Part shown: positions 19,001 through 61,261 of the stretch, piece by piece
Layout: every line of letters starts with the position of its first letter
Position numbering within the stretch: the first letter of the stretch is position 1
DNA from: Bolinopsis microptera
Taxonomy: Eukaryota > Ctenophora > Tentaculata > Lobata > Bolinopsidae
Direction of reading: 5' to 3'
Assembly: GCF_026151205.1 (NCBI RefSeq)
Contig: NC_087079.1
Span: 6,048,169-6,112,168, forward strand
DNA: 64,000 nt
Program-made: the position numbers and the translations under genes
The notes under the pieces: generated by a model
Seen by the model: only the letters and a program-made list of their open reading frames with translations
Database searches by the model: none
What the model was told of the DNA's origin: nothing

Positions 19001-19482
19001 ATTCCCAATTTTGATCATAAAGAATACTACTTAACCTGTGCACGTTCAAGAACTTATAACGAACATATGGCTAAAAAGAACTACTGTCTTGAACACACTA
19101 AACCGCTATTCACTGAGCAGAAAATTATGAACCTGGAGAATCTGCACATGTACCATACATTTATGGAGCTATTCAAAATTCTTAAATTTGATGTCCCCCA
19201 GTCGATTAAAGATCTTTTCAAGTTCTGTCCTAGAAATGAAAAAACTTCGTCTTATTGTCCCATTACTGAGGTTAGATATCTCCCAACAGAACTTTTTGTA
19301 CACCTCTACGAAAATATCTCATCCCCTATGTATTCGAAATATGTGATGCTAATGTAGATGGGATAATAATCCCGGGTTCTTCCAAAAATTCAGACTTATC
19401 AGCCTCGTCAGGTATTATTAAATCTAACCTTAAAAAGCACTTGCTATCCCTCCAAAATCGAGGTGACCCTAATATATGGTAA
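16055..19482 (+). pseudogene. LINE ORF2: PHD-like finger, APE endonuclease, reverse transcriptase; about three frameshifts
   Basis: The first frame (16055-17518) has an N-terminal Cys/His finger (CPGCDSN ... CESCDTIYHAKC ... CSQC), then an APE endonuclease (AETN, VVYRPPS, GDFNVD). The usual SDH near the end reads SHH, so a catalytic Asp is replaced. The frame breaks near 17510-17517 at ATTTAAAAAAA and continues at 17481-17882. It breaks again in an A-run near 17868-17875 and returns to the first frame for the RT: motif A (SKAFDTIEHDK), motif B (GVPQGSVLGP) and motif C (VLFADDTN). A third shift near 19340 leads to a plausible C-terminus (SNLKKHLLSLQNRGDPNIW) with stop at 19480-19482. Two breaks fall in A-runs, so sequencing error is possible as well as real decay. 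Confidence 0.85.
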
Positions 19483-20218: not shown

Positions 20219-21335
20219 GTTTCAACTGCTTCAACTTTAATACTCTTAACCATAACACTGCTTCAACTTTAATACTCTTAACCTTAACACTGCTTCAACT
20301 TTAATACTCTTAACCTTAACACTGCTTCAACTTTAATACTGCTTCAACTTTAACACTGCTTCAACTTGAACACTGCTTCAACTTTAATACTCTTAACCGT
20401 AACACTGCTTCAACTTTAACACTGCTTCAACTTTAACACTGCTTCAACTTGAACACTGCTTCAACTTTAATACTCTTAACCTTAATACTGCTTCAACTTT
20501 AATACTCTTAACCGTAACACTGCTTCAACTTTAATACTCTTAAACTTAACACTGCCTTAACCTTAACACTGCTTCAACTTTAATACTCCTAACCTTAACA
20601 CTGCTTCAACTTTAATACTCTTAACCTTAACACTGCTTCAACTTTAATACTCTTAACCTTAACACTGCTGACTGCTTCAACTTTAATACTCTTAACCTTA
20701 ACACTGCTGACTGCTTCAACTTTAATACTCTTAACCTTAACACTGCTTCAACTTTAATACTCTTAACCTTAACACTGCTGACTGCTTCAACTTTAATACT
20801 CTTAACCTTAACACTGCTTCAACTTTAATAACACTGCTGACTGCTTCAACTTTAATACTCTTAACCTTAACACTGCTTCAACTTGAACACTGCTTCAACT
20901 TTAATACTCTTAACCTTAATACTGCTTCAACTTTAATACTCTTAACCGTAACACTGCTTCAACTTTAATACTCTTAAACTTAACACTGCCTTAACCTTAA
21001 CACTGCTTCAACTTTAATACTCCTAACCTTAACACTGCTTCAACTTTAATACTCTTAACCTTAACACTGCTTCAACTTTAATACTCTTAACCTTAACACT
21101 GCTGACTGCTTCAACTTTAATACTCTTAACCTTAACACTGCTGACTGCTTCAACTTTAATACTCTTAACCTTAACACTGCTTCAACTTTAATACTCTTAA
21201 CCTTAACACTGCTGACTGCTTCAACTTTAATACTCTTAACCTTAACACTGCTTCAACTTTAATAACACTGCTGACTGCTTCAACTTTAATACTCTTAACC
21301 TTAACACTGCTGACTGCTTCAACTTTAATTATACT
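20219..21335. repeat. Minisatellite (about 32-bp unit) with a 434-bp higher-order duplication
   Basis: The array is built from CTGCTTCAACTTTAATACTC plus TTAACCTTAACA, with shortened variants and some CTGACTG insertions. Landmark variants recur exactly 434 bp apart: GAACACTGCTTC at 20451 and 20885, CCTAACC at 20588 and 21022, and the AATAACACTGCTGACTG junction at 20827 and 21261. So a block of ~13 units was duplicated as a whole, recently. The minus-strand ORF at 21171-21359 is an artefact of the repeat. Confidence 0.95.
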
Positions 21336-25150: not shown

Positions 25151-26899
25151 TCAAGGAGCAGCTGGAGAGACTCCATCTTGTTGGCTATTATCAGTGAGCT
25201 CTATAGAGGAGGACTCTCCAATGGTAGTGGTAGATTCACCCTCCAGCATGTGCCATCTTGTAACACGGTGGCCGCACGAGGAGAGGGCATCTTCCCAGTG
25301 GGACCTGGTAGTGCCACCTGATTCCTTACCTAACACCAGTCCTCCGATGTAGCTGTGTCTTTTGAGCCCTGTGCAGTCCCACACAGTTATCTCAAGACAT
25401 CTATCATTGCTTTCTATGTCAAAACTGCTTATGTCATAGGTAAATTTGGCTTTATGCCCAAATTCTGGGTTTGAGGTTTGCTTGATGATCTCTGTTTTTC
25501 GCTTGTAGGTGTTTCGTTTCAAGGATGGTCGGATGTTGACTTTTACCATTGGATTTGGCAGAGTGTCAGAGCCAGGGACCATGAGCATGCTACATCTTAC
25601 AATAGTTACTTTGAGCTCTTTGTTAGCTTGGTAATGCAGTGAAATTTGTATCCTTCCTCTGTCTATAACTGCGGATGCTTCATGTGTTTCCTCTTCCGGC
25701 TCTTTGAGAACCTCGCCATATAAATGTTGCTTTTGGGGGATAAGACCATCTAAAGGTACTGTGGTTATTCCAATCATATCATTTTTGGTCATTCTGTCAT
25801 AATCTAATACTGTTAGTCTGACCATTTTTGTCTTTATGTCAGAGTCAAAGATTCCATGGTATGTTAACTTTTCATTGAAGACAGGATTCAAATCACATTC
25901 CTTTCTTGAAGTCTTGAGTTTAGTTGCCTTTGGGTGTCCTGGTATCAATGTACATTTAACATATGGATCACTTGTTCCTCCAACATCCATTGGTTTAAGC
26001 TTATGACCAGAAAATACTTTAACATTTAGCATTTGTTCTATAGGGTCATACTGAAGAGAAAACCTAATAGCTCCCAGCTCTCCGGTTTCCAGATCATCCT
26101 CGTTTTCTTGAGAGTTAATATCATCTGATCCTATCGCATCCAACACCTGGTCCTCCTCACAAGGTATTCCTCCACTTGTTGACTCATCTCCATCTAGCTC
26201 ATCTTTGTTGGACTTATCCTCTCCTTCATCACTATCACTGTCTTCAGAGTCAGAATCATCAGACTCTTCGGAGTCATCAGTAGTGCTAAGGTAGTCAGAA
26301 TCAGGATCCCAAAAGCTCTCACTGTTAACTTTATTGGGTCGTTCAATAGGTTTCTTTTGGACAGGCGAATTTTTCAATTTTGGAAGCTGTTTTGGAAGCT
26401 TTGGGGGAATAACATACTTTGGAATAGCATGGAAGAACCATGCATTTGACTTTTTCCATATTTCCCTATACTCACTGCAGACACGGCAAAGAATTTTCGG
26501 TAAAACAATTTGTCTCTTCTCAGTTTCTACTTTGCACTTACTACAGACATTTCTTTGACACATATGACAACGGAATGGTTTGGCCTTCAGGAAGCCAAAG
26601 CTTGCATTGCAGAATAAGCATGTCTTGTAACCATCTCCCTGACTACACTTCATGTTCTCAAATCGTTCCATTAATTTGCCAATCCTCTCCTCTTCTAACT
26701 GAACCAGCTCATTGTGTTTCTTGATCACTTCTTCAATCTTATCAATCTCATGTTTTGCAAAAGATTCTCTAGTACACGTGGGTTTCAATCCAGATTGAAC
26801 ACTTTTGTAACTCCATCCCATGCCATTGTTCAATTTTGATCTCAAGCAAAGCTCTCTGTCTGTTGGGCATACCCATTTGTGAAGTCCAGCCTTAGACAT
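25151..26899 (-). CDS. RPH3A: Rabphilin-like Rab effector with FYVE-type zinc finger and two C2 domains
   Basis: The 582-aa product acts on secretory vesicles by binding Rab3/Rab27-GTP and membranes. Order: basic N-terminus; helix ~48-85 (EIDKIEEVIKKHNELVQLEE); FYVE-like zinc finger with four Cys pairs (94/97, 111/114, 119/122, 138/141); the SGAWFF-type Rab-contact motif as SNAWFF (151-156); a Ser/Asp/Glu-rich linker (~195-270); C2A (~277-400); and C2B (~413-552). C2A keeps the Ca2+ ligands (D305, D311, D366, D368, D374). In C2B the first loop reads VPGSDTLPNPMV and the second WDCTGLKRHS, so several ligands are missing and Ca2+ binding there is doubtful. The start is the Met at 26897-26899: a TTTTATTGCAG acceptor ends 3 nt upstream, and the open frame further upstream (to 27043) is intronic. 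The coding region has no introns. Confidence 0.93.
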   Translation of the reverse strand: MSKAGLHKWVCPTDRELCLRSKLNNGMGWSYKSVQSGLKPTCTRESFAKHEIDKIEEVIKKHNELVQLEEERIGKLMERFENMKCSQGDGYKTCLFCNASFGFLKAKPFRCHMCQRNVCSKCKVETEKRQIVLPKILCRVCSEYREIWKKSNAWFFHAIPKYVIPPKLPKQLPKLKNSPVQKKPIERPNKVNSESFWDPDSDYLSTTDDSEESDDSDSEDSDSDEGEDKSNKDELDGDESTSGGIPCEEDQVLDAIGSDDINSQENEDDLETGELGAIRFSLQYDPIEQMLNVKVFSGHKLKPMDVGGTSDPYVKCTLIPGHPKATKLKTSRKECDLNPVFNEKLTYHGIFDSDIKTKMVRLTVLDYDRMTKNDMIGITTVPLDGLIPQKQHLYGEVLKEPEEETHEASAVIDRGRIQISLHYQANKELKVTIVRCSMLMVPGSDTLPNPMVKVNIRPSLKRNTYKRKTEIIKQTSNPEFGHKAKFTYDISSFDIESNDRCLEITVWDCTGLKRHSYIGGLVLGKESGGTTRSHWEDALSSCGHRVTRWHMLEGESTTTIGESSSIELTDNSQQDGVSPAAP

Positions 26900-27399
26900 G
26901 ATCTGCAATAAAATTGAAATGGTTAGAATTGTATAAATTGAAAGAGGGATTTCAACAGACCAATAACAGTTACAACCCCCCCCCCCCCCCCGCCCCATCA
27001 ACCCTTTACAGGATCCACCCCTGATTTGAATTAATGAGGTCATGTATTAGTGCTTTTCAATACAAATTTAAAATGGGGCAATCATGTAATGGAGCCAGGG
27101 TTTGGACTAGCTTTCACCCGCTCAAAATGTTTCCATCACGATACATATAATCTATATGATAATTTGAAAGTTTCTTTTTGTTTGTCTGTTTGACTACCCA
27201 CGTGCAAGTTAGATGAGAAATAAGAAGTTGCGTAATAACACATGTGGAAAAGCAAACATACATGATGCACGTTCAATGATTGTTGGAATAGCATTTTGAT
27301 CGGTTTAATTGTAATAACCTTGTGTTTAAAGTGTTTTACATTTAAATCAGATGTATCTTCGATTAAACAGCAACGGATGTAAAGTTTTAAAAAATTAAA

Positions 27400-40351: not shown

Positions 40352-43070
40352 TGAATCCTGAAGATGATAATTTTTATTTGAAGTGTGGGTTTTTTTTTCA
40401 AGATTGGTCAAATTAATTTATATCTTTGACGACAGTTTTAACTTTTAACAGTGAAAACGTTTGACTTTTATTCGCTGTTAAAACTTAGATTTCTAATTTA
40501 TTAACTCTGTAGTAGGTTTTTTGACGTTTTTACTTCGTTTGTTGGTATTTAAGTTTAACTTATTTAACTGTTTATTAAAACCTTTCGTTTGACTGAATAC
40601 GTTCCAGATTGAGCCGTCATGATATCAAGTATGACAGTGAAAATAAGAAATATTCTCAAAATAAAAATAAAATATTCTCATCCAAATTTATCGAATGACA
40701 ACTAACGTTTGGCTGCTAAAATGAAGATTTTCAAAACATCTCTACATAATTTGCCTGGCCGCTGATAATTACACATTTTAATAACTTTTAACACTAGAAC
40801 CTAGTCCAGATTAATATCCCTGCTAAATGCAAGGTTATCAACACGTCACCCCGGTGATCAACACGTTACCCTGGTGATCATTCAGTTGTCAACTCTATAT
40901 ATGTATAATCACGGTGTCAAGGAGCAGATCACATTTCCTGACTACAGGTAAGTTCTATCAATATCATAATTACATGTAACATCACTCACCACCAACATCA
41001 TCAGAAAACTCAGACGGGATTATCTTCCGTTTCTCATGACATCATATCCAGCACACTGTATAACTGTATGTAAGTCATATTCCGTGCCGCTCAAAGTTTA
41101 ACAAATGATTTAATTTATTATCTTGTTTCGAACTCCGACAGCCTATACCCCTTGGTAACAACACCTAACAACCCCTTAACAACCCCTTGGTAACAACTCT
41201 CTCCCCTTGGTAACAACTCTCTCCCCTTGGTAACAACCTTTCTCCTCTTGGTAACAACCTTCTCTCCCCTTGGTAACAACTCTCTCCCACCCGGACGATA
41301 AACTGATAATTGTAGTGTTATACGGGGTGGTCTAATAATGTGTCAACTCTAACCAGTATCAAATAACCAGCATCTTACACAAGCCTACTCTTGTACCCCC
41401 TCCTTCTCCCGATATAATGAACCTAATTCCCATGTCTTGGTGTCTTATCACCGTTAAACCTAGTATACGCATAATATGACAGCTGTCAAATTTATATGTT
41501 CCGGTGGCTTATCATTGGTTCACTTCGGAATCATCACCTTATATATGATGAAATTTTTGGTAGGAAATTATGTTATCTCTTGTACAGTAAATGCGGCCGA
41601 TATGTAAATACTCATAATATTTCCCACAACCTAGCATCTTTAAAACATTCGGCAATACTGGACCTACGTGGCAAGCTTGCTACCTGAACAAAACAAATAT
41701 ATCCATGATTTTCTCTCTGGAACTTGGAGATATCACTTGTTTTAACATTTTAGAGCTCATCACGGATATCAACATCTTTACTCTTTATTTTACTTTTTGA
41801 TAAACAGCTCGTCTTATTAATTGTAAGGGTGTTAACAGGACAGGTAACAACACGGTGACACTTTCTTGACAATACAAATTGAATTGTTTTAGTGCTAGTC
41901 ATGTCAAATTTGGTATGTATAAAGAGTCGCTAATTTTAGTGCTCGTCGAATGTAAAGTATTGAATATAAAGAGTCGCTAATTTATGTAAAATATCAAGTT
42001 CTGTAATTAAGTTGCTGCTCTTTCCCTTGAGTTTGTAACACTGTAGTACACGAGACAGTTGTTGGCCCGTGGGATCTCAGTTTAAAGGCGACTGTATTGT
42101 CCAATCATAGACTAGTTATCACAGCAAGTCATCTGATTTAATTAAATAATAAACAACCTCCTGATTTAGCCGCAGGTTAGTTACTCTACCGTGCCGTAAC
42201 GTACTGTAACTTACTGAAAGATATTATAAATCTAGCTTACTGTAACTTACTAAAAATAATATAATAATCCGCCTTATATTGTGTGTTTTCCTTAAATACA
42301 ACATACGATAAACGTAATTACTGTAACTTATCATGTCAATCATGTCCATCATGTTTATAATGTTCATCATGTTTATTAAGTTTATTATGCAGTATGTAAG
42401 GAGCAATGTTACGTACATACTGTAGAGCAAGGTAAACAGAGCCAACTCATCAGCATACATCAGTAAGAAGAGAGAGTAATGTTGCATGTAGGGGGAGGGA
42501 GATTTACCTGATATTTTAAATATGTATGACTACCTGGATTGTGGACCCATTATAATAGAGTCGTGTGTTATAATATACAGTGCAGGTCGAGGCTATGATC
42601 CTACTCCAGGAGTCAAACAGTACAGTGTACACTCAGTGAACGGCTATTTGTGTATCTTGTGGTCTTATAAAGGCTGGAGACATATAAATTACACTGCACG
42701 CTATACTCTGTGGTCCTACTTGAAGAATCGTAGTGTATTCTTTACACTGAATGACTGAACTGTGAAAAGGACCAGTGTAACGTGTTACCCCTGTTAATGA
42801 TAAGAATTACATTACCCTTTTAACTGGCAATGCGAGTTATGTAATCTTATTATGTTAGTTCACTGTGAGTATGAAACGTGCTTTGTAGGATATAACGAAT
42901 CTCCACTACCTACTGACTTCTGACTACATTTATCTTATGTAAACATGTCATATAAAACTGAAGGTTGGTTCTTGAAACATGTTATTAATGATACGGTAGA
43001 TTGTTTGTCTCAGAAGCTCTCAAATAACACGTGCTAATTTTCTTTACATGTCATAATATAATACATCATA
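40352..43070. other. Gene-free stretch downstream of UTP23
   Basis: Includes the UTP23 3'UTR (AATAAA-type motifs near 40660), a 22-bp duplication (CAACACGT.ACCC.GGTGAT, about 40845-40885), the minisatellite at 41148, and runs of ATCATGTTTAT near 42340. A 78-aa ORF at 42522-42758 has no recognised domain. Confidence 0.4.
41148..41288. repeat. CCCCTTGGTAACAAC minisatellite
   Basis: Six or seven units of about 22-24 bp (CTCTCCCCTTGGTAACAA core), with small indels, inside non-coding sequence. Confidence 0.9.
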
Positions 43071-43827
43071 TTATAAACCCCTCCGGGATAGAATAAGATT
43101 CTGATAATCCCGGCTCCCGCTAAATAGATTCTGATAATCCCGGCTCCCGCTGTTAGTTTTTTCCCGCTGAATAAATAACCCCGGCACAGCTTTTATAATC
43201 CCGCCCCGCTAATTTGGCTCAACAAGATTTGTTTTGTTTTGACATTCCATGAGAATTTCAACCGTGTACTGTCACGTGTTTTGATGACGTGTATCACGTG
43301 ACTAACTACTACGACGCGCATTGGTAAAAAATGTCACGTGACCTATGGCTTAACGTAAGAACTATAAATACACTCGATCTACGTATCGGTCTAATTGCAG
43401 GCGCTGGCAAAACTCCAGCACACTGCTTACATTACTTAAACTCTTACATTAATTGGACCAGTTCCAAAACTTGTCTCGACGGTTACATTTGATTTTGTCC
43501 GGTTCGGTTAATTTTGTCGTGTTTGATATAAGCCATGTATTATAGTCGTCTACTTTGATAAACTTCATGACACGATATCATTATTAGCTTTTATCGCTTG
43601 CCAGGCTTAACTCGACGCCCCTTATCGATATTCATATTCATTCAACGTTCTGACTGAGGAATAATGTTTAGATATAACGCCAATTTCAAAAGTCATAGTA
43701 CCTTAGTTGTATTTATTTGGTAGTCCCCAATTCCATTTCATATTTTCCATAATGATCTCATATAGCTATATTTAAGAGTAAAATGTCAAATTTGTTGGTC
43801 CTAGCACTAACCCGGAGGGGTTTATAA
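43071..43827. mobile_element. 757-bp TIR element containing an E-box/TATA promoter-like module
   Basis: Perfect 17-bp terminal inverted repeats: TTATAAACCCCTCCGGG (43071-43087) and its complement (43811-43827). Near the left end a 32-bp sequence (ATTCTGATAATCCCGGCTCC core) is tandemly duplicated. Inside are three CACGTG sites (43273, 43295, 43335) followed by CTATAAATA (43362-43370), which looks like a core promoter reading toward the NERD-helicase genes. No transposase. Element status rests on the TIRs alone; target duplications are unclear. Confidence 0.6.
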
Positions 43828-44004
43828 CACATAACACCGGCACGCTTAAGTTATATTAAAATAACCCCTCGTGCTAAAGCACGTCGGGGTTATTTTCATA
43901 ATAATCCCTCGTGCTTCGCACTCGAAATTATTATAAACTTTTCCCGCGCGTCGCGGGAAAAATTGAAATATAATCCCTGCGCATGCCGGGGTTATGTGTG
44001 TTAT
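43824..44004. mobile_element. Small foldback element rich in hairpins
   Basis: The ends ATAACACATAACACCGGCAC and GCCGGGGTTATGTGTGTTAT are near-complementary. Inside are consecutive hairpins: 43860-43894 (AATAACCCC..CGTGC TAAA GCACG..GGGGTTATT), about 43900-43934, and a perfect TTTTCCCGCG/CGCGGGAAAA at 43939-43961. It abuts the right TIR of the previous element. Confidence 0.55.
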
Positions 44005-45024
44005 ATACCAAGACTGCACGTGAAGAACCTGGCTCACAGACCGATTGAAAAATCAAATTAGTCTTCTAACAAACGTATAGTTATATCTATTATCTACACG
44101 TCCGCAATGTGTGCTTAATTTCCAAGTGAATGTAGCTTATGATTGAGGATGAATCAGTTTTTAACATTTTGTGCTTGGCTATTATACCCTCGTAATGGAA
44201 ATGAATAGCGAGGTGTTCCACCACTCTAACAAAACCTTTAAAGGACCTTGACAGTATTTTATCTATGGGCCCTTAAAGTTGAGAATCCAAGCTCTACAAC
44301 ATTCTTTATATAATAGATTTATAGCGCTTAGAAACTTCTTCCTTTGCTGTCTCTTTAAATAGATATTACTCTTACACAGAATTATCCAAACTCTATTACC
44401 GTCCGAGATAATGTGCCCACAATATGTGACTAGTGACTATAGCCTTACACTGTGAGGCTACGTATGTAGTTGTCGGAGCTTTTCTTTGCTGTTATTTACA
44501 TTGAGCAATTCGAAATCATTGCAGCTGATTGACCACTGATTTTTGCTAATTTGTGATTGAGTTGGAAGTAAAGTTTGTCTTTCCGAGTTATTTCTGATGA
44601 TTTCTTTCCAACCTCGTAACTAGTACAGTTTGTAGATTGTAGATAGTTTCATAGTACCTCATCGAGGTAAGATTTGGACTAATTTCTAATTCCTATTTTT
44701 TTTAAATTGTAATATTATTTGGGGAAAATTTGGAGAAAATTTAGATATGAACCATGTGTTCTAGCATGACACGTGATTCTTTATGTTAGCACAGTACGAT
44801 TTATAATTTTATTTTAATTTATTTCTCGGTTCGTTTTACCTAACATATTCATTTATTTAGCTAGCCTGATGGTAACCAGAGAGCATTGATGTAATGTACT
44901 CATGTACTGCAAGCTGGTCTCAAGTCCAGACACCATCATTTCACTTTCATTACTATTAACCTGTGTAGTTAATAGTTATTGACTACATTCTAAGCTATCG
45001 TTGCAGCGTGAATGATATTATGGT

Positions 45025-47382
45025 ATGGCACAGAAGGACACAAAATACCAGGAATATCTCCGGAATGGAAAGGAGATATTTGAAACCTACTGTTCAACTG
45101 GAGACAAACGTCCCATCATGTTACCCAGAGCTCCTCAGCAAACTTACATAGACGTCATAGACCCAAATGAGGATAAACCAGGGTGTAGTTTCGAGAATGA
45201 CAGAAACCAACAACTCAACTACGAGGCTGAGGTAACAGTATACAGGGTTTTGGAGAAACTGGATGGAAATTATATTGTTCTTCATAGTTTTGAATATACG
45301 CATTTCCAATACCACTTGGGAGATTCTAATCATGATCGGCGAAAGTGCATTATATGTAAAAAGACAGCTACCAATCGCGAAGGCGAGTGTGATTTCATTG
45401 TGATAGCACCAAACTACTTTGTTATTATGGAAGTTAAGAATATGAGTCATATCGGTGAAATATCAGAGAATGGGAGTAATAAAGATCAACAGATGCAAGC
45501 GTTGGGTAAGACATTCAAGAAATCGGCGGAACAGAGGAAGAGGATAAAAGACCTGATCATGAGATTTTGTAAGCGGTTAACAGTCCGTCAGTTCACCGTA
45601 TATCCAAATTTTGATAAAGCTTTCAAGAGCCAATTTCAGCTCAGTAGTTCTGAAAAATCAACGATTATTTTCAAAGATGATGTTGATGATTTCAGTAATT
45701 GGTGGAAAGAGAATGTTTCAGACCTACTCATGGATGACCCCTTGGGTCAAGAGTTTCGTACCCAACATGAAAAAGTTAGAAATCTATTTTTAGCTATTTG
45801 GTGTACAGATAAGAACCATTATGATATAGCTAAGTGTAGTTTGGGTCAGTGCATATTGAAAGTTGACAAACAGTTGCGTTCTGGAAAATTTATATTCAGA
45901 CAAAATAACCCTGAAGTTATTCCAACACCGACACTTTACAAGGAGTATTTAGGAGTAGAAAACTTGACCAAAGAGCAGTACGATTTGATAAATTCAACTG
46001 AAAGGTTTCTGTGGATCAATGGACCCGCCGGATCGGGCAAAACTGTGGTACTGATGGCTAGGATACTAAAACTAGTATTATCGAGTGAAAACAGCCAAGT
46101 TGTTTTATTTAGCGGAGGAACAATAAACTATGATCGCGCAGAACTTTCGCCAATACCGGATGTACTGGATAAAGCTGGCATAACATGGGCAGTTTTAGCT
46201 CTGAAAAATTGTACTGAACCTTACAAATTCTTTCGTGTAATGTCTGAATCTCTATTGCAATTTCAAGTTGTCATAGTTATGGTATGGGGTACACTAGAAA
46301 CTAAAGATATCGACATCTTAGGAATTCCACCTGGAGTTAAAAGAAGGTGGTTGAATGACTTATTTCGTTACTTACGTGGTATCAACGTATTTGTCGATGA
46401 TATGCAACAAGGGTTAGGAATCTCAGATGGCAACCATGACATTGTAGACACATTGTTTGAGTTATCAAAATCCAGTGATATTTGTGTGGCTTGTGATATG
46501 ATTCAAAGAGCTTTTTTTGTCGCTGCTTCTGCTCGCATGTATGATCAGAGTAACCTTATTTTAGAACAGTTCTTCAAAGATGAATGTTCTCCTTCAGCAA
46601 AGATAGGTAGTCTATCAAAGAGCTTGAGAAGCACCTCTGATCTCTCGAGATGTCTGTCAGTTATTCGGAAAATAACCATTGAGCGTAGAAGCTTCGACCC
46701 AAATTTTGTAACTAGCGTCTATCCCATACAAACCCGTGGGCACTACATACATGGACCAAGAGTTATCATACATGTTTTAGAAAACTTTAATAAAGAACTG
46801 TTGCATACTATTTTTGCCAAAGAATTGGATACATTGTCTGGTGATGATTTCAAGACCAACGACCTGGGGATAATCAACAACGGTATCAAAAATTTTGGTC
46901 TCACTGAAAAGGCTCTCGTAGAACTTCGTAGACTTACATTTATTTCAGTCAACAGCATCATTGACGAGGTGTTGGAATCAAAGGGTATACCGCGGGGACA
47001 AATGATTACACCATATTCGATGGAATGGCCAGCAGTCATCGCATTCCAGACGTTAAGTGAGAGTGGTGTAATCGTTCGTAAGGAAACTTACCAAAACTCC
47101 TCACCTGAAAATTATTATGACTATTCTTCGGACTACGAAACTCTATACGTTTTAATTTCGAGAGCTCGAGTGAAGTGCATTGTCATCTTGATTCCAATAG
47201 AAGATATTAGCTTTGATAGTTATTCTCTGATGAAAGATTTGCTGTTCAATCTTGAGGATTTCGCAGAAGTGATAAGACATCCGTTGACACCTCCAGGTTA
47301 CTCACCCAGATATCAAGTTACTGTTCAACCGGGTGGGGTGCATATCTTTGACAAGCTGAGATTAGAATCTTTGAGACTTTAA
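45025..47382 (+). CDS. NERD nuclease-SF1 helicase fusion protein, copy A
   Basis: The 785-aa product is in one exon. Residues ~62-190 form a NERD domain (PD-(D/E)xK nuclease-related): YEAEVTVYRVLEKL with E67/E69, then GECDFIVIAPN (D123) and EVK (E136, K138), the full catalytic pattern. CIICKK (108-113) may hold a metal. From ~312 a superfamily 1 helicase follows: Q-motif LTKEQYDLI, Walker A GPAGSGKT (333-340), Walker B FVDDMQQ (456-462), motif III ACDMIQ (489-494), motif IV LSKSLRST (530-537) and motif VI YVLISRARVK (708-717). Such fusions are known in bacterial nucleic-acid defence and repair; the helicase half also recalls Schlafen/DUF2075. Probable role: cleaving and unwinding foreign or damaged nucleic acid (inference). 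A non-coding first exon likely ends at 44666 (ATCGAG|GTAAGA); the acceptor GTTGCAG ends at 45006, 18 nt before the ATG. AATAAA at 47845. Confidence 0.8.
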   Translation: MAQKDTKYQEYLRNGKEIFETYCSTGDKRPIMLPRAPQQTYIDVIDPNEDKPGCSFENDRNQQLNYEAEVTVYRVLEKLDGNYIVLHSFEYTHFQYHLGDSNHDRRKCIICKKTATNREGECDFIVIAPNYFVIMEVKNMSHIGEISENGSNKDQQMQALGKTFKKSAEQRKRIKDLIMRFCKRLTVRQFTVYPNFDKAFKSQFQLSSSEKSTIIFKDDVDDFSNWWKENVSDLLMDDPLGQEFRTQHEKVRNLFLAIWCTDKNHYDIAKCSLGQCILKVDKQLRSGKFIFRQNNPEVIPTPTLYKEYLGVENLTKEQYDLINSTERFLWINGPAGSGKTVVLMARILKLVLSSENSQVVLFSGGTINYDRAELSPIPDVLDKAGITWAVLALKNCTEPYKFFRVMSESLLQFQVVIVMVWGTLETKDIDILGIPPGVKRRWLNDLFRYLRGINVFVDDMQQGLGISDGNHDIVDTLFELSKSSDICVACDMIQRAFFVAASARMYDQSNLILEQFFKDECSPSAKIGSLSKSLRSTSDLSRCLSVIRKITIERRSFDPNFVTSVYPIQTRGHYIHGPRVIIHVLENFNKELLHTIFAKELDTLSGDDFKTNDLGIINNGIKNFGLTEKALVELRRLTFISVNSIIDEVLESKGIPRGQMITPYSMEWPAVIAFQTLSESGVIVRKETYQNSSPENYYDYSSDYETLYVLISRARVKCIVILIPIEDISFDSYSLMKDLLFNLEDFAEVIRHPLTPPGYSPRYQVTVQPGGVHIFDKLRLESLRL

Positions 47383-48612
47383 TTTCCCGGAGTATTGTTG
47401 AACTCATTTTGTAAAGATCACAATAGCAATATTGTAAAATGTTGCAAGACTCAGCTACGAAACTCTAGATTCACATGAGCAAATCTCAATTATGAACTGA
47501 ACCTATCTTGTGTTCTCCAAACTTTATTATTGTGATGGACATGTTTTTGTATCCTTGAATGCTTTTTAAGAAACTTTAAAATGTGAGTAGGTATTACACA
47601 TTATTCCTCAAGCAAGACTTAAAATAGAACAAAAACAGGAATTGACTATAAGATAGCTCAGACTGCTTTTAAATATGAGAACAACATCACTCCAGATAAC
47701 CTTTAAAGGTGTGTCACCTGAAACCAAGACCTCTTAATCGAAAGAATGACCAAATCTTTGGTTTTACTCTGAAGCACTAAAGGGACGTTCGCGTTGTGCC
47801 GTATATTATATTCATTATTATCTTTTCATTGATCATGAGGTTTCAATAAACGCCCTATGTAACAAGAGTTCGTAAGATTTGAATGACGTTGTATGATTTT
47901 TCAAAACGATTCAAAAATTCTAATTAATTATGTGTTTACTTTTATATCATTTAATTTTAATTATATTAAATCTTCAGCTGTGTTCAGTCTCTGATTAAGG
48001 TAATAAAAGCCTACCTCCTAAAACAGAAAGAGTTTAGTTATGATGGTGCCCAGAAGACTACTTATTATATGTTTATATATCTATCATTATATTTAACTGT
48101 AACTGTGCCTTGCATGAGTAGTCATTCGCAAACAACATTCTGCGTATAATAAAAAATACTCTACTTAAACTTATAGCATATCATTAGTATTAGAATCTAT
48201 TGATAATAGTATGTGCACTGTGCATCAGGTACTGGAGCGTACTGTATGTACACTTATTATTACCTTTATAAGCTACCTGTGGACACTACTAAACTACACT
48301 ATAATAATACCATAAAGATATCACGTGACTTAAGTTCTTATCTTCACTGTTTGGAGATAATTTCCTATCTGATCAGCTGTTGTTACCGGGAATAATTTGA
48401 TGATTGTGGATGAATCAGTTTTTAACATTTTGTGCTTGGCTATACCCTCTTAATGGAAATAAATAGCGAGTTTTTCCACCACTCTAACAAAACCTTTAAA
48501 GGACCTTGACAGTATTTTATCTATGGGCCCTTGAAGTTGAGAATCCAAGCTCTACAACATTCTTTATGGTGTTTATAGCGCCCAGAAACTTCTTCCTTTG
48601 CTGTCTCTTTAA

Positions 48613-49461
48613 AGGGGGGGGGGGGGGGGGGGGCATGGGTATTTTTTTGTGAAACTTGATTTCGAGATAACAGTTGACCAACAAACTAGGACCAGTGACC
48701 AAACCCGCCAAACGGTGCCCGCGGGGCAGCCACGCCCATATTTGGTCCAAATTAGGCCCAAATTAGCCAAATACCCTGAACATGCCTAAAACCCAGATTT
48801 TAGGTGCTCTACCTGTAGCTAGTGGTCTCCTGAACTCGTATATGAAATTTCATCAAAATTGGACAACAAATGATTGAGTTATGAGCCAAAAACCATAAGC
48901 CCATATTTGGGTGAATTTGGGTCACAATTAATTTGGTTACTATAATTTTGGTAACCATAATTTTGGGCACAAAATTCGCAAATTTTTAGTCTACAACAAT
49001 TTTAGTCGCATTTTTTTACTTTTCGAGACCATTTTCCATTCCATTTATTTGATTTTTCCATTATAAAGTAAGTCTTATTCAAAATATTGATATTTGGCTA
49101 ATTTATGGGACAAAATCTACCAAATTTGGTGCATATGCCCAAATATGGGCATATGGTTTTTGGCTCATAACTCGGTCATTTTTGGTCCAATCTTGATGAA
49201 ATTTCATTTACGGGTTCAGGAGACCACTAGCTACAAGTAGAGCACCTTCAACCTGGTTTTTGGGCATGTTCAGGGAATTTGGCTAAATTGGGCCTAATTT
49301 GGACCAAATATGGGCATGGGTGCGCGTGCCCCGGGGGCACCGTTTAGCGGTTTGGGTCCGGGATCCCCTCAAAAGTTCGGTCAATGGTTTTAGTTTGTTG
49401 GTCAAGTTCTGCTATCTCGAAATCAAGTTTCACAAAAAAATACCCATGCCCCCCCCTCCCC
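48613..49461. mobile_element. 849-bp TTAA-flanked foldback element, second family member
   Basis: Flanked by TTAA at 48609-48612 and 49462-49465; starts AGGGGG (20-base G-run) and ends in C-runs. The arms (GGGCATGGGTATTTTTTTGTG ... and its complement) share sequence with the arms of 6166-7538 (GAGATA.CAGTTGACCAACAA, GCCCGCGGGGCAGCCACGCC) but are shorter and more diverged. Paralogous position 44351-44360 in unit A reads CTCTTTAAATAGA with a single TTAA, the empty site, so insertion followed the duplication and duplicated exactly TTAA. No transposase; piggyBac-type non-autonomous. Confidence 0.9.
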
Positions 49462-50184
49462 TTAAATAGATATTACTCTTACACAGAATTATCCAAACAC
49501 TATTACCGTCCGAGATAATGTGCCCACAATATGCGTGCAGCTAGCAGGAGTTGCATGATGTGGGCACGGTGAGAAGGCTTCCCTCTTAAAGTAGGAAGCC
49601 AGAAACCGTTGACCTTAACCAAGAGAGAGAGACTATAGCTCTTACACTGTGAGGCTACGTATGTAGTTGTCGGAGCTTTTCTTTGCTGTTATTTACATTG
49701 AGTAATTCAAAATCATTGTAGCTGATTGACCACTGATTTTTGCTAATTTGTGATTGAGTTGGAAGTAACGTTTGTCTTTCCGAGTTATTTCTGATGATTT
49801 CTTTCCAACCTCGTAACTAGTACAGTTTGTAGATTGTAGATAGTTTCATAGTACCCCATCGAGGTAAGATTTGGACTAATTTCTTATTCATATTTTTTTT
49901 AATTGTAATATTTGGGGAACATTTGGAGTAAATTTAGATATGAACCATGTGTTAACCATGTGTTCTAGCATGACATGTGATTCTTTATGTTAACATATTC
50001 ATTTATTTAGCTAGCCTGATGGTAATCAGAGAGCATTGATGTAATGTACTCATGTACTGCGAGCTGGTCTGAAGTCCAGACGCCATCATTTCACTTTCAT
50101 TACTATTAACCTGTGTAGTTAATAGTTATTGACTACTGATTAGAACATTCTAATCTTTTGTTGCAGCGTGAATAATATTATGGT

Positions 50185-52506
50185 ATGGCACAGAAGGACA
50201 CGAAATACCAGGAATACCTCCGGAATGGAAAGGAGATATTTGAAACCTACTGTTCAACTGGAGACAAACGTCCCATCATGTTACCCAGAGCTCCTCAGCA
50301 AACTTACATAGACGTCATAGACCCAAATGAGGATAAACCAGGGTATAGTTTCCAGAACGACAGAAACCAACAACTCAACTACGAGGCTGAGGTAAAAGTA
50401 TACAGGGTATTGGAGAAACTGGATGGAAATTATATTGTTCTTCATAGTTTTGAATATACGCATTTCCAATACCACATGGGAGATTCTAATCATGATAGGC
50501 GAAAGTGCATTATATGTAAAAAGACAGCTACCAATCGTGAAGGCGAGTGTGATTTTATTGTGATAGCACCAAACTACTTTGTTATTATTGAAGTTAAGAA
50601 TATGAGTCATATCGGTGAAATATCAGAGAATGGGAGTAATAAAGATCAACAGGTTCAAGCGTTGGGTAAGACATTCAAGAAATCGGCGGAACAGAGGAAG
50701 AGGATAAAAGACCTGATCATGAGATTTTGTAAGCGGTTAACAGTCCGTCAGTTCACCGTATATCCAAATTTTGATAAAGCTTTCAAGAGCCAATTTCAGC
50801 TCAGTAGTTCTGACAAATCAACGATTATTTTCAAAGATGATGTTGATGATTTCAGTAATTGGTGGAAAGAGAATATTTCTGACCTACTCATGGATGACCC
50901 CTTGGGTCCAGAGTTTCGTACCCTACATGAAAAAGTTAGAAATCTATTTTTAGCTATTTGGTGTACAGATAAGAACCATTATGATATAGCTAAGTGTAGT
51001 TTGGGTCAGTGCATATTGAAAGTTGATGAACAGTTGCGTTCTGGAAAATTTATATTCAGACAAAATAACCCTGAAGTTATTCCAACACCATCTCATTACA
51101 AGGAGTATTTAGGAGTAGAAAACTTGACCAAACAGCAGTACGATTTGATAAATTCAACTGAAAAGTTTTTATGGATCAATGGACCCGCAGGATCCGGTAA
51201 AACAGTGGTAATAATGGCTAAGATACTGAAGCTAGCTATGTCAAGAAAAGATAACAAAATTGTTCTATTCAGAGGACTTATGTTGAATGCAGAGGAAAAA
51301 GATATTGTACAGAGACCAGATAAAATATTAGATAAAGCTGGCATAAAGCATGTATATATAACTCTAGGTCCCAAATCATTTAGTAAACCTGACCCTATCG
51401 AACATTATCTCGATATAGTTTATAATCTAATTGAAAATAAAGTTGTCATAGTTTTGTCTTGGGGTTTTTTCCATCATTCTAATTTAGCCGATATGGTTAA
51501 ATGGAATAACGACTTATTTCGTTTATTGCGTGGAATCAACGTGTTTGTCGACGATGTACATCAGGGGTTTTCACTTTTAGATGACCACCATAACTGGTTG
51601 GAAACGTTAGTTGATTCATCAAATTCCAGTTATACTTGTGTTGCTTGTGATATGGTTCAAAGACGATATGACTGTAATGCAGAAAGTGACTTAATTTTGT
51701 CACGTTTTTTCGAAAACAAATTATCTCCATCGTCTCAGATTGTTAGTTTATCAAAGAACTTGAGAAACACGTTTGATCTATCGAGATGTTTGTCGGTTAT
51801 TCGGAAACGAATCATTGACATCAGGAGCTCCTATGACCCAAAATTTTTAACCAACCTCTTCCCTTCACAAACTCTTGGGCACTTCATACATGGACCGAGA
51901 GTTGTTATACATGTTTTAGAAAACTTTAATAAGGAACTGATGCAAGGTATTTTTGCCAAAGAAATGGATCTATTATTCTGTGATACTTTCTCAGAATTTG
52001 GTAATAATACTGATGAACTTTCAGTACTGATTAGTGGTCATGAACATGATCCTTCACTAATAGTAAGAGATACCTCCTCTTTAGTCAACAGTTTCATTCG
52101 TGAGGCGATAAAAACGTTGGAACCGTTACCGAGCCAATGGATGACATCATATTCGACGGAACGGCCAGCAGTTATAGCACTTCAAATTTTACGGGATTGT
52201 GATGTATGTGAAATAGTAAAGGACTACTCACCGAGGGAAAATTATGCAGAAGTTTCCTCGGATTTCGAGCATCTATACGTATCTGTGTCAAGAGCACGAG
52301 TGAAATGCACTATAATCTTGATTCCGGTAAAAGGTTTTCTATTTGATAATTATTCTCGCATGAAAGATTTACTGTTTAAACTGGAAGAGTTTGTAGACGT
52401 AAGGAGACATCCGTTGACACCTCCTAGTTACAAACCTAGATACATTGATGTTAAACCAGGTTCATGTTTTGATACTTTAAAAAATGTTACTTCTAACAGT
52501 GATTAG
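50185..52506 (+). CDS. NERD nuclease-SF1 helicase fusion protein, copy B
   Basis: The 773-aa paralogue of copy A, 5160 bp downstream. It has the same order: NERD (E67/E69, D123, EVK 136-138), Walker A GPAGSGKT (333-340), Walker B FVDDVHQ (454-460), motif III ACDMVQ (487-492), motif IV LSKNLRNT, motif VI YVSVSRARVK. All key residues are present, so it seems intact. Residues 1-330 differ from copy A at only ~15 positions; after Walker A, identity falls to about half, with indels. The leader intron is conserved (donor after 49863, acceptor ending at 50166). AATAAA lies at 52608. The upstream flank carries the foldback element, ~0.4 kb before the first exon, which could separate it from shared regulatory DNA. 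Confidence 0.8.
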   Translation: MAQKDTKYQEYLRNGKEIFETYCSTGDKRPIMLPRAPQQTYIDVIDPNEDKPGYSFQNDRNQQLNYEAEVKVYRVLEKLDGNYIVLHSFEYTHFQYHMGDSNHDRRKCIICKKTATNREGECDFIVIAPNYFVIIEVKNMSHIGEISENGSNKDQQVQALGKTFKKSAEQRKRIKDLIMRFCKRLTVRQFTVYPNFDKAFKSQFQLSSSDKSTIIFKDDVDDFSNWWKENISDLLMDDPLGPEFRTLHEKVRNLFLAIWCTDKNHYDIAKCSLGQCILKVDEQLRSGKFIFRQNNPEVIPTPSHYKEYLGVENLTKQQYDLINSTEKFLWINGPAGSGKTVVIMAKILKLAMSRKDNKIVLFRGLMLNAEEKDIVQRPDKILDKAGIKHVYITLGPKSFSKPDPIEHYLDIVYNLIENKVVIVLSWGFFHHSNLADMVKWNNDLFRLLRGINVFVDDVHQGFSLLDDHHNWLETLVDSSNSSYTCVACDMVQRRYDCNAESDLILSRFFENKLSPSSQIVSLSKNLRNTFDLSRCLSVIRKRIIDIRSSYDPKFLTNLFPSQTLGHFIHGPRVVIHVLENFNKELMQGIFAKEMDLLFCDTFSEFGNNTDELSVLISGHEHDPSLIVRDTSSLVNSFIREAIKTLEPLPSQWMTSYSTERPAVIALQILRDCDVCEIVKDYSPRENYAEVSSDFEHLYVSVSRARVKCTIILIPVKGFLFDNYSRMKDLLFKLEEFVDVRRHPLTPPSYKPRYIDVKPGSCFDTLKNVTSNSD

Positions 52507-54881
52507 TTATTGTTTATCAATAATCAATATATAATATGTATTTTATCAGCAATTCAAAATATCTGTTGCTTTGATTGTTATTTTGTGTTTTGGTTTTGTA
52601 TTTACAAAATAAACAGTGTTCAGTCACTAATTTGATGAAATAAAAAACTTCCCAAAATGTTTTGGACAACACTGAAACATAATTTCATATTCTATACTTA
52701 AGGTTAAGGAAAGGTTATCAAAATATACAATTAAATATTTAAAGCAACCCATAAGTATAAAATTCGGTTGCGAATAGTAATCTCCTTAATATTATTATTA
52801 TGTACACTGTACTACAGGTACTGAACTACACTGTGTATACAATATACATGTTTGTTTTAGTTTATACCTGAGGACACAACGAGACCATGTTTTTACTTAT
52901 TATAATATCATCAACTCCAGTTATTATTTTGCAGTCATTGGCTTTGCAAACAACATTCTGCGCATAAAAAATACTCTACTTTAACTTATAGCATATTATC
53001 ATTAGTATTAAAATCTATTGATAATGGTATGTGCACTGTGCAACAGGTACTGGAGCGTACTGTATGTACACTGATTATTACCTTTATAAGCTACCTAAGG
53101 ACACTACTAGACTACACCATAATAATACCATAACGATATGATCACGTGACTTAAGTTCTTATCTTCACATTCCACTGTATGGAGATAATTTCCTATCTGA
53201 TCAGCTGTTGTTACCGGGAATAATAATTTGTAGTCTCGGCTACTGAACATTCTAACATTATTCATAATTCACGAACCTCTCCATTTACAGCAGGTCATTT
53301 CAAACTATTCGCTTTATTCATGTCAACAAATACTTGTCGAAATGTAAGGAATGCTAATGGGACCAATCAGCTAAAACGTTGTGCGCGTATATAATATAAT
53401 ATATCTCAAACGTCATTAACCAGCATTAGTCAAATTGGTAGAATTCTAAAAAACAAAGCATTATTATTATACATTCTAGTATAACTATAAACGGGCCCTA
53501 CTCAGCGGAGGAATATTTTAATATTATTTTACTTTCCAGTCTTTTCAACTTAACAGGGTTAATCTATTGAACAGATTGTTACTGATTACGTAACTACGAT
53601 ATAATTATAGAGGTACTATTATATAATCAAATGGCTTATATTCTACCATCACCTATTGGAATTATCGGGGGTTATTATTTAGATGATATAACTAGAAAAT
53701 GGAAACTGGTGTTATTTCAACCCCTCACTTCCAACCAAACTGATAATTATCAATTAGGTAACAAATCTAATTAAAGTTACAGTTATAACAGCTGTAGCCG
53801 CCAGTCTACAACAGCTAATGAATTAATCAACTGTAACGCCTTGCCGAATCAAATAATTGGCCCGGCTGAAGCATGCAATTTAAATCAGCTAATTGAAGCA
53901 CTCAGCTAATCATCCTAATGACTAAGACATGCTCATAATTAAAATACTCGAGACTCCACCCAAGTCATGAATATTCCAGGTTGGTTCTAAAATAGATTAT
54001 CCAGAAAACTAACTCACATTTTCTCAAGCAGATTAATCACGTGTACTTGTGTACAGAGGTTTTGACTTTAAAACTCATGAAATAGCTAGTACACATTGTG
54101 ACTCATCTTAATTCGTCAACAAGCAACGTGAAGCCAGTGTTATAATGTGCTATGCTCTCAATGAGTTGAATGTTTACAATGTAATAGCCAGTTGTAAGTG
54201 TTTAATGTTAATACTGGTGATTTTGTAGCATAAGACGGGATCATGAGTTATAAATTAATTTATTCTAGAACTTATATAGTTAGTCTCTGTAGGTCAACGG
54301 TCGTTTATGGTAAGGATAACACGTACACTCGTTAAGAGTTGGAATCTGAAATGATTTAAGAAAATATTTTTAAAGATTGATTGGAATGTCTTGGTGTTTA
54401 AAGTTTGATTAAATTTCCCAATAAATGTTTACCATTAAAACAAGATTGAGGCTGGCTAAAATGATAATATTCACACTGTAAATTCAGTAGATTCCATTCC
54501 TGAATCCCTGGTATTACAACACATTTGCCTTGTTATAACCACAACCAGATATCTCACCCATTATTCTCGGCTGAATCAGCCAGCCCGATGTAAAACAATC
54601 TCTATAATATATACCTAATTAATAAATTTAATACATATCGTGAATGATTTACTGTGTGATCACTGCCTATATTCCTGACTACATATACTCTGTAATTATA
54701 TTACTGAGATACAGTCTCTACAGGGTAGCTGGTACTCAGTCAGGTTGGTATACAGTAAAACTGCAGAGTTTGGGAAAAGGAAACAGCCGTTCTAAATCGG
54801 GATTTGCAGTAAATTGGGGTTTTACTGTAAAATACACTGTAGATAGAAGATAACCCTGCTAGTATAGAGGGCTCCAGGCTC

Positions 54882-60450: not shown

Positions 60451-60563
60451 AGTCCTAAGAGGAGGGTGTTAGTGTGGTGTTTGATCTCTGTTTGTAGTGG
60501 TGGTAATGAGTTGTCGGGTAAGCTTTATTGAGGCTGTCGTTAGTTGCTGCTGGTGGGGATCGT

Positions 60564-61136
60564 GGCCCTTGTTGGCTGGTTTCTGGCCCTTGTTGGCTGG
60601 TATCTGGCCCTTGTTGGCTGGTATCTGGCCCTTGTTGGCTGGTATCTGGCCTTGTTGGCTGGTATCTGGCCCTTGTTGGCTGGTATCTGGCCCTTGTTGG
60701 CTGGTATCTGGCCCTTGTTGGCTGGTATCTGGCCCTTGTTGGCTGGTATCTGGCCCTTGTTGGCTGGTATCTGGCCCTTGTTGGCTGGTATCTGGCCCTT
60801 GTTGGCTGGTATCTGGCCCTTGTTGGCTGGTATCTGGCCCTTGTTGGCTGGTTTCTGGCCCTTGTTGGCTGGTATCTGGCCCTTGTTGGCTGGTATCTGG
60901 ACCTTGTTGGCTGGTATCTGGCCTTGTTGGCTGGTATCTGGCCCTTGTTGGCTGGTATCTGGCCCTTGTTGGCTGGTATCTGGCCCTTGTTGGCTGGTAT
61001 CTGGCCCTTGTTGGCTGGTATCTGGCCCTTGTTGGCTGGTATCTGGCCCTTGTTGGCTGGTATCTGGCCCTTGTTGGCTGGTATCTGGCCCTTGTTGGCT
61101 GGTATCTGGCCCTTGTTGGCTGGTATCTGGCCCTTG
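60564..61136. repeat. 21-bp minisatellite, ~27 units
   Basis: Unit GGCCCTTGTTGGCTGGTATC+T. Two units lack one C (20 bp), which shifts frame. The unit has no stop in four of the six frames, producing long spurious ORFs (for example PANKGQI on the minus strand). No start or splice context, so not called as a gene. Confidence 0.95.
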
Positions 61137-61261
61137 TATGATTGTTGTATCAGGATTAACACTGCGTTATAAATGGGAATGATTGCTGGTTTTATGGCAA
61201 ATGTTTATTGTAGTCTAAACTTTACAATTAAGAGGACTCCCTTGTCTGTGTTTATATACAT

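Follow-up and report, generated by a model that had tools for sequence, protein, structure and literature searches.

A tandem pair of NERD nuclease–SF1 helicase genes in Bolinopsis microptera and its diversifying ctenophore family, a candidate nucleic-acid defence system

What two adjacent genes for nuclease–helicase fusion proteins might be doing in an animal genome is the question raised by a 64,000-nucleotide stretch of DNA from the ctenophore Bolinopsis microptera (hereafter, the window). On the basis of sequence comparisons, we consider it likely that they belong to a large tandem and dispersed ctenophore family of nucleic-acid defence proteins, in which a NERD domain would serve as the effector and a hypervariable SF1 helicase as the sensor or motor. 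Both genes lie on the forward strand and are intact from ATG to stop, with no internal intron in the coding part, exactly at the coordinates given by the first-pass annotation: copy 1 (45025–47382; ORF and Pfam evidence) has 785 codons and copy 2 (50185–52506; ORF, Pfam and AlphaFold evidence) has 773, each in one coding exon. Between 43000 and 54500, the only other ORFs of at least 100 codons are two antisense ones within the genes. At 25151–27043 (−), an uninterrupted ORF of 630 aa encodes FYVE_2 together with two C2 stretches and is presumably synaptotagmin-like or rabphilin-like, and long intact ORFs are thus not confined to the NERD pair; another uninterrupted ORF of 463 aa at 489–1880 (−) carries an ADAR-type adenosine-deaminase domain (152.8 bits). 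The window also contains a minisatellite with 32-bp and 113-bp periods, set in strongly GC-skewed sequence (about −0.36), at 20225–21311, and a 21-bp unit repeated 27.5 times at 60563–61137, where four overlapping ORFs in different frames are probably not genes.

Upstream of both genes, a common donor (GAG/GTAAGA) and acceptor (TTGCAG/CG) flank an indel-rich stretch. Given that these signals are kept around it, a 5′UTR intron followed by a single coding exon is probable for the pair, and putative introns were placed, from the sequence only, at 44667–45006 (+, copy 1) and 49864–50166 (+, copy 2). Among 29 full-length family members, a strict donor (AGGTRAG) occurred within 800 bases upstream in only 8, and a YAG was seen by eye no more than 60 bases ahead of the chosen ATG in 27, as chance alone would lead one to expect.

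The nuclease assignment was confirmed by the Pfam NERD profile (PF08378), which scored 35.5 bits in copy 1 (E-value 1.5e-8) and 39.7 bits in copy 2 (7.8e-10) against a curated cut-off of 22.1. According to the Pfam match and the alignment, the domain spans residues 66–184 (45220–45576 and 50380–50736, both +). The catalytic residues of NERD domains are E, D and ExK, and both copies have this pattern as E69, D123, E136 and K138, as first reported. The helicase half has two RecA-like domains, a Walker A motif (GPAGSGKT, residues 333–340; 46021–46044 in copy 1 and 51181–51204 in copy 2, both +) and a motif VI arginine; its fold matches UvrD and SLFN11 and is nearest to SLFN11, UvrD and UPF1. The profile of the UvrD-helicase N-terminal domain exceeded its cut-off of 23 in copy 1 (24.4 bits) but not in copy 2 (21.2 bits), in the region of approximately residues 314–355. 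The earlier description of a full set of SF1 motifs was slightly generous: motifs I, II, III, IV and VI are conserved, but motif V is less so, a conserved motif Ia could not be picked out, and motif II reads Asp-Asp (D456 and D457 of copy 2; 51550–51555, +), the normal form in SF1 helicases being Asp-Glu. The NERD-helicase observation as a whole holds and goes beyond chance, given the Pfam E-values above, homologues that span the full length and an AlphaFold prediction at pLDDT 85.3 and pTM 0.90.

Residue conservation was assessed in an alignment of 130 rows, comprising 129 database matches and copy 2, with fragments included. Among rows with a letter at the position, E69 was present in 123/123, D123 and E136 each in 125/125, K138 in 112/125, K339 in 129/129 and R703 in 112/112; the nuclease and ATPase residues are thus nearly invariant. 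D457 occurred in 120 of 121 homologues, so that Asp-Asp is a near-universal, fixed departure from Asp-Glu. With such a Walker B motif, ATP hydrolysis may be weak or turnover slow.

Bacterial contamination was ruled out, as the window lies on contig C8 of the B. microptera assembly with animal-type genes alongside and is therefore ctenophore sequence. PF08378 matched at least 91 places on contigs C1 to C13 of the 264.65-Mb genome, all above the cut-off. An open frame of at least 690 codons was found at 52 of these places; the frames at the remaining 39 are shorter, and these places may be fragments, spliced or broken. At 20 of the 91, a further such place is found no more than 20 kb away, compared with a mean of 1.35 and a maximum of 8 in 500 random placements (the size of one contig being approximated), and eight matches are clustered at 8.008–8.056 Mb of C13. 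For sequence comparisons, 45 regions besides the window were sampled (L001–L008 were dropped as duplicates of other loci), yielding 29 full-length ORFs including the window pair, defined by a query match from residue 30 or earlier to residue 700 or later without a stop. The organisms named among the matches listed were exclusively the ctenophores Mnemiopsis and Bolinopsis (best 120 of 130, 120 of 139 and 88 of 88), although a ctenophore-only occurrence is unproven, because the homologue search was word-limited and named rows were a minority. A scan of viral contigs returned at least two loci (L055 and L056) with 26% identity, confined to residues 250–363. Searches of other collections gave three weak matches among PDB sequences (best E 0.28), nothing near the curated cut-offs of NCBIfam, and PHROGs matches confined to the P-loop region. 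No match to the NERD part appeared among the PDB fold matches listed, since these lists were filled by the helicase.

The two genes belong to a unit duplicated head to tail, with the first unit at 44139–48396 and the second at 48400–53224, and the similarity between the two units is highly uneven. The constant segment, consisting of the 5′ flank, the putative 5′UTR and the nuclease half (44139–46031 in copy 1 and 48400–51191 in copy 2, both +), is about 91%–100% identical, small gaps aside, whereas the variable cassette, consisting of the helicase half and the 3′ region (46032–48124 and 51192–52942, both +), shows 44%–78% identity per 100 aligned bases. Identity rises again to 90% overall in the 3′ flanks (48125–48396 and 52943–53224, both +), and to 94%–97% in the last 200 bases of the copy 1 flank (48197–48396). 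Summarised along the unit, identity is approximately 97% in the 5′ part and nuclease half, approximately 66% from Walker A onwards and 90%–97% past the 3′ region. The constant segment of copy 2 is broken at approximately 48614–49461 by a MITE-like insertion about 0.85 kb long, which bears inverted repeats of 186 and 53 nt and has kin in L029, L044 and L021. The break in identity falls within the Walker A codons (change point at codon 335.7, log-likelihood gain 202), and the synonymous differences between the copies rise from 13.5 per 201 sites before it to 128.2 per 285 past it (P 6e-22). A recent duplication with an old middle suggests that one of the copies received a new helicase-half cassette from a diverged paralogue, and a cassette has thus probably been exchanged in this pair; the donor was not found among the regions compared.

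Homogenisation appears to have occurred elsewhere in the family. In the trio L018, L019 and L020, the nuclease half is the part that stands apart: it has diverged by 0.3%–0.8% versus 7%–9% past the change point, the flanks differ by approximately 3%–9% (two pairs compared), and the synonymous contrast is significant (P 0.0008; two pairs tested), so that the nuclease half of these genes looks homogenised. Across the 29 members, each half rejects the tree of the other (AU P 7e-5 and 5e-4, from 5000 resamplings, which are few according to the program). Among 29 proteins drawn from the database matches and the window, 351 comparisons had sufficient overlap, and in 350 of them the first half was more alike than the second. 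The L033/L036 pair is more diverged in the first 170 codons than afterwards. In the pair L025/L026 and in the L014 and L042 pairs, synonymous divergence was equal between the halves (P 0.33, 1 and 1, respectively), and conversion therefore does not account for the excess protein change in their helicase halves.

Codon site models (M1a versus M2a under GY94, with our own code and branch proportions fixed from M0) were fitted to three groups of 10, 6 and 3 paralogues, which together make up 19 of the 29 full-length ORFs. The helicase half of group 1 favoured M2a with a likelihood-ratio statistic (LRT) of 129.4, assigning 20% of sites to ω 3.54; LRT was 116.0 for group 2 and, more weakly, 14.8 for group 3, where the fit consisted of 96% of sites at ω 1 and 4% at ω 15. 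Such tests can be inflated by recombination between copies, and the controls lessen this inflation without removing it: with columns within three positions of a gap removed, LRT was 53.4 in group 1 and 54.3 in group 2, and with the group 1 helicase half cut into three stretches, each with its own tree, it was 35.2, 6.3 and 18.9. When the group 1 helicase half was simulated 24 times under M1a, the maximum LRT was 11.0 and one of the 24 runs fell under P 0.05. The helicase half is thus under diversifying selection, strong in two groups and weaker in the third. In the nuclease half, LRT was 0.09 for group 1 and 11.5 for group 2 (P 0.003, a value to be read against the one null run in 24 that reached 11.0 for the group 1 helicase half), and overall ω was 1.12 in group 3. 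Together with L033/L036, the nuclease halves of groups 2 and 3 mean that the division into a slow nuclease and a fast helicase is not a clean one.

The selected sites recur and are not scattered evenly over the fold. Positions 428, 499, 631, 651, 672, 673, 674 and 696 were selected in both groups 1 and 2 (hypergeometric P 8e-6). Sites lying 0–12 residues past a strand end made up 23/36 in group 1 (P 4e-4) and 9/15 in group 2 (P 0.05), relative to a background of 36%; empirical-Bayes sites of clade 1 in residues 451–600, where the model gave ω 1.6 for a third of sites, were not used. In RecA folds, the face that binds ATP and nucleic acid is lined by strand ends, so that the ligand face of the helicase seems to be the target of selection. 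In pairwise comparisons of seven independent pairs, a set that leaves out overlapping pairs and the window pair with its high synonymous divergence, dN/dS was 0.47 at residues 1–330 and 1.43 at 601–690. dN exceeded dS at 601–690 in all seven pairs (barely in one; pooled P 0.035) but at 346–450 in just four; the region limits for these comparisons and for the strand-end tests were drawn post hoc, with the profile already inspected. A slowly changing nuclease joined to a fast helicase is the pattern that would be expected for immune genes, and diversifying selection is also known from genes in selfish or reproductive conflict.

Part of the family appears to have changed its output. Residue 138 is not lysine in 13 of the 125 readable rows and is serine in ten of the 13. 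Eight homologues extend more than 150 residues past motif VI, and all seven of them with a readable residue 138 have serine, compared with 4 of 100 shorter homologues lacking the lysine. According to Pfam, P0126 and P0127 have a C-terminal TIR_2 domain (39.9 and 44.9 bits, against a cut-off of 28), and ankyrin repeats are present in P0102 and in P0124, a protein named B. microptera; precomputed lists add ankyrin in P0108, P0109 and P0123. The Ser138 members P0113, P0116 and P0119 have no TIR or ankyrin tail. As the rows are related, the loss of the lysine in company with tails may represent one event, and in one branch the nuclease output apparently gave way to a TIR or ankyrin output.

From gene structure, motifs, family size, mosaicism, selection and fusions, all of which are read from the DNA, we infer a substrate, sensing, cleavage and a role in defence. 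The helicase half would load onto foreign or aberrant nucleic acid, or onto a viral or transposon nucleoprotein, and the variable loops near the RecA strand ends would recognise some rapidly evolving trait of the opponent. Binding or turnover of ATP, perhaps slowed by the change of the Walker B Glu to Asp, might then license the nuclease half to cut. New specificities could arise both from point selection in the helicase half and from exchange of helicase-half cassettes among copies, with the nuclease halves of at least one gene trio kept alike by conversion; in one branch, the nuclease lysine would have been lost and TIR or ankyrin tails would have taken over the output. This scheme is modelled on Hachiman, in which the helicase restrains the nuclease until a trigger, and on Nhi, with its proposed response to phage SSB. 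Should nucleoproteins of a comparable kind be encoded by ctenophore viruses or transposons, an arms race would be expected to yield such variation on the ligand face. The antiviral or anti-transposon interpretation of the first-pass annotation is supported in part, and the bacterial contamination that it had also considered does not apply.

The closest rival places the arms race with mobile elements and not with infections: in germline anti-transposon surveillance, the helicase half would spot retrotransposon intermediates or proteins and the nuclease would destroy them. The nuclease–helicase logic would be identical, the expansion and selection fit equally well, and LINE-like ORFs occur within the window at 13893–19357 (+), namely one with a PHD-like finger and a 2OG-Fe(II) oxygenase domain (70.4 bits), one with a PHD-like finger and a weak endonuclease match, and a reverse transcriptase (137.1 bits). 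We take the oxygenase to be AlkB-type, and such a domain seems unusual in a LINE-like element. The TIR tails of some homologues, however, suggest signalling over element silencing, and we regard this explanation as unlikely. A second rival holds that these are selfish or drive-type genes, a toxin with self-rescue, multiplying and diversifying against one another with no role in host defence. Clustered and dispersed copies, cassette exchange and diversifying selection would suit such genes too, but the locus encodes one protein with conserved enzyme motifs, without a further ORF of at least 100 codons in 43000–54500 except the two antisense ones, and signalling proteins are where TIR and ankyrin fusions are more typically seen; we therefore consider this highly improbable. 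Equally improbable in our view are housekeeping enzymes of repair or RNA decay (UvrD-, UPF1- or Schlafen-like) that expanded by chance under relaxed constraint on the helicase half. The fold relationships described above and the large share of the helicase half with ω near 1 accord with that idea, but relaxation by itself yields ω near 1, whereas site classes with ω well above 1 recur at identical positions in separate groups and the catalytic and ATP motifs are kept. Finally, carriage of the gene as cargo by a mobile or viral element is disfavoured as very improbable indeed: the coding part is intronless, copies are spread across 13 contigs and matches to the flanks of the pair occur in 6 of the 45 further regions (the longest being 927 bp at 98% in L011), but no inverted repeats of at least 40 nt bounding the unit were found, the two detected sitting in the unit 2 insertion, and none of 50,697 phage records gave a match at E 1e-5. 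The stretch shared with L011 (43080–44005, just upstream of unit 1) lies several kb from the L011 gene and outside the window unit, and thus looks like an independent, probably unrelated dispersed repeat.

Nucleic-acid defence by a diversified family thus remains our preferred reading, and it bears on what is known of ctenophore immunity. A survey of immune genes in Mnemiopsis covered 20 immune Pfam domains, TIR2 and DEAD helicases among them, and reported 15 TIR2 genes and the upregulation of four TIR2 genes after Vibrio exposure; its main text mentions neither NERD nor Schlafen (PMC11797021), and the accessible portion of a further article mentions neither NERD nor helicase (PMC13231562). 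As far as that text goes, the NERD-helicase family was uncounted in the 20-domain survey and offers a concrete candidate, with many enzymes whose variable sites can be read. No paper on a ctenophore or cnidarian NERD-helicase was found and none of the listed titles or abstracts describes the family, in a search whose coverage mostly excluded subscription journals. New here are the probably cassette-exchanged tandem pair, the diversifying selection on the helicase half, the near-invariant enzyme residues and the TIR or ankyrin tails on some lysine-less homologues.

Among known systems, vertebrate Schlafens (SLFN11 and SLFN14) have a Schlafen nuclease core where the window proteins have NERD. 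Neither window protein matched that core in Pfam at E 0.1, and the SLFN-g3 helicase profile was absent from both at E 0.1 and below its cut-off in P0126 and P0127. Gabija likewise combines a nuclease with a UvrD-like helicase, and GajB models match the P-loop of the window proteins. The Gabija system consists of two proteins with an OLD-type nuclease. In contrast to the separate GajA and GajB, each window gene encodes one polypeptide with NERD, and no separate GajA-type gene was present among the nine window ORFs scanned. Hachiman also differs in having two proteins (HamA nuclease and HamB helicase) from families other than NERD-helicase; in its published description, the helicase acts as a sensor that holds the nuclease in check. 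Closer in layout are Nhi and the NERD-helicase models of PADLOC (RTasNERD-Hel and C3a187), which, as in the ctenophore proteins, place nuclease and helicase in a single chain. The best PADLOC model was RTasNERD-Hel (32.2 and 35.5 bits), with its top stretch at residues 61–227; no defence reverse transcriptase lies beside the pair, the sole reverse transcriptase among the ORFs scanned being the LINE-like one about 26 kb away. A full-length match to the Nhi profile was absent in both copies, which scored 20.7 and 20.8 bits over about 60 residues at the P-loop. A review describes Nhi as a nuclease-helicase encoded by a single gene whose proposed trigger is phage SSB (PMC12904381), and this provides a model for a helicase that reads a protein of the opponent. 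Compared with bacterial Nhi and NERD-helicases, the ctenophore family is animal, with proteins of about 773 aa, at least 91 PF08378 places, a hypervariable helicase half and TIR or ankyrin fusions, and its Walker B motif is Asp-Asp in contrast to DEAQ in the bacterial relative L054. In scale, it recalls the zebrafish NLRs, likewise a large lineage-specific immune repertoire, in the paper on which gene conversion is mentioned 22 times (PMC4852459); the NLR fold is unrelated, and the ctenophore family keeps an enzyme constant and varies a helicase. Whether the family pairs a constant nuclease with a helicase in which selection and cassette exchange diversify the ligand-facing loops, with a derived TIR or ankyrin branch, and would so be an animal counterpart of bacterial nuclease–helicase defence with an NLR-scale repertoire is, in our judgement, an even call. 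If true, nuclease–helicase coupling would have been used repeatedly, in bacteria (Nhi, Gabija and Hachiman), in vertebrates (Schlafens) and in ctenophores.
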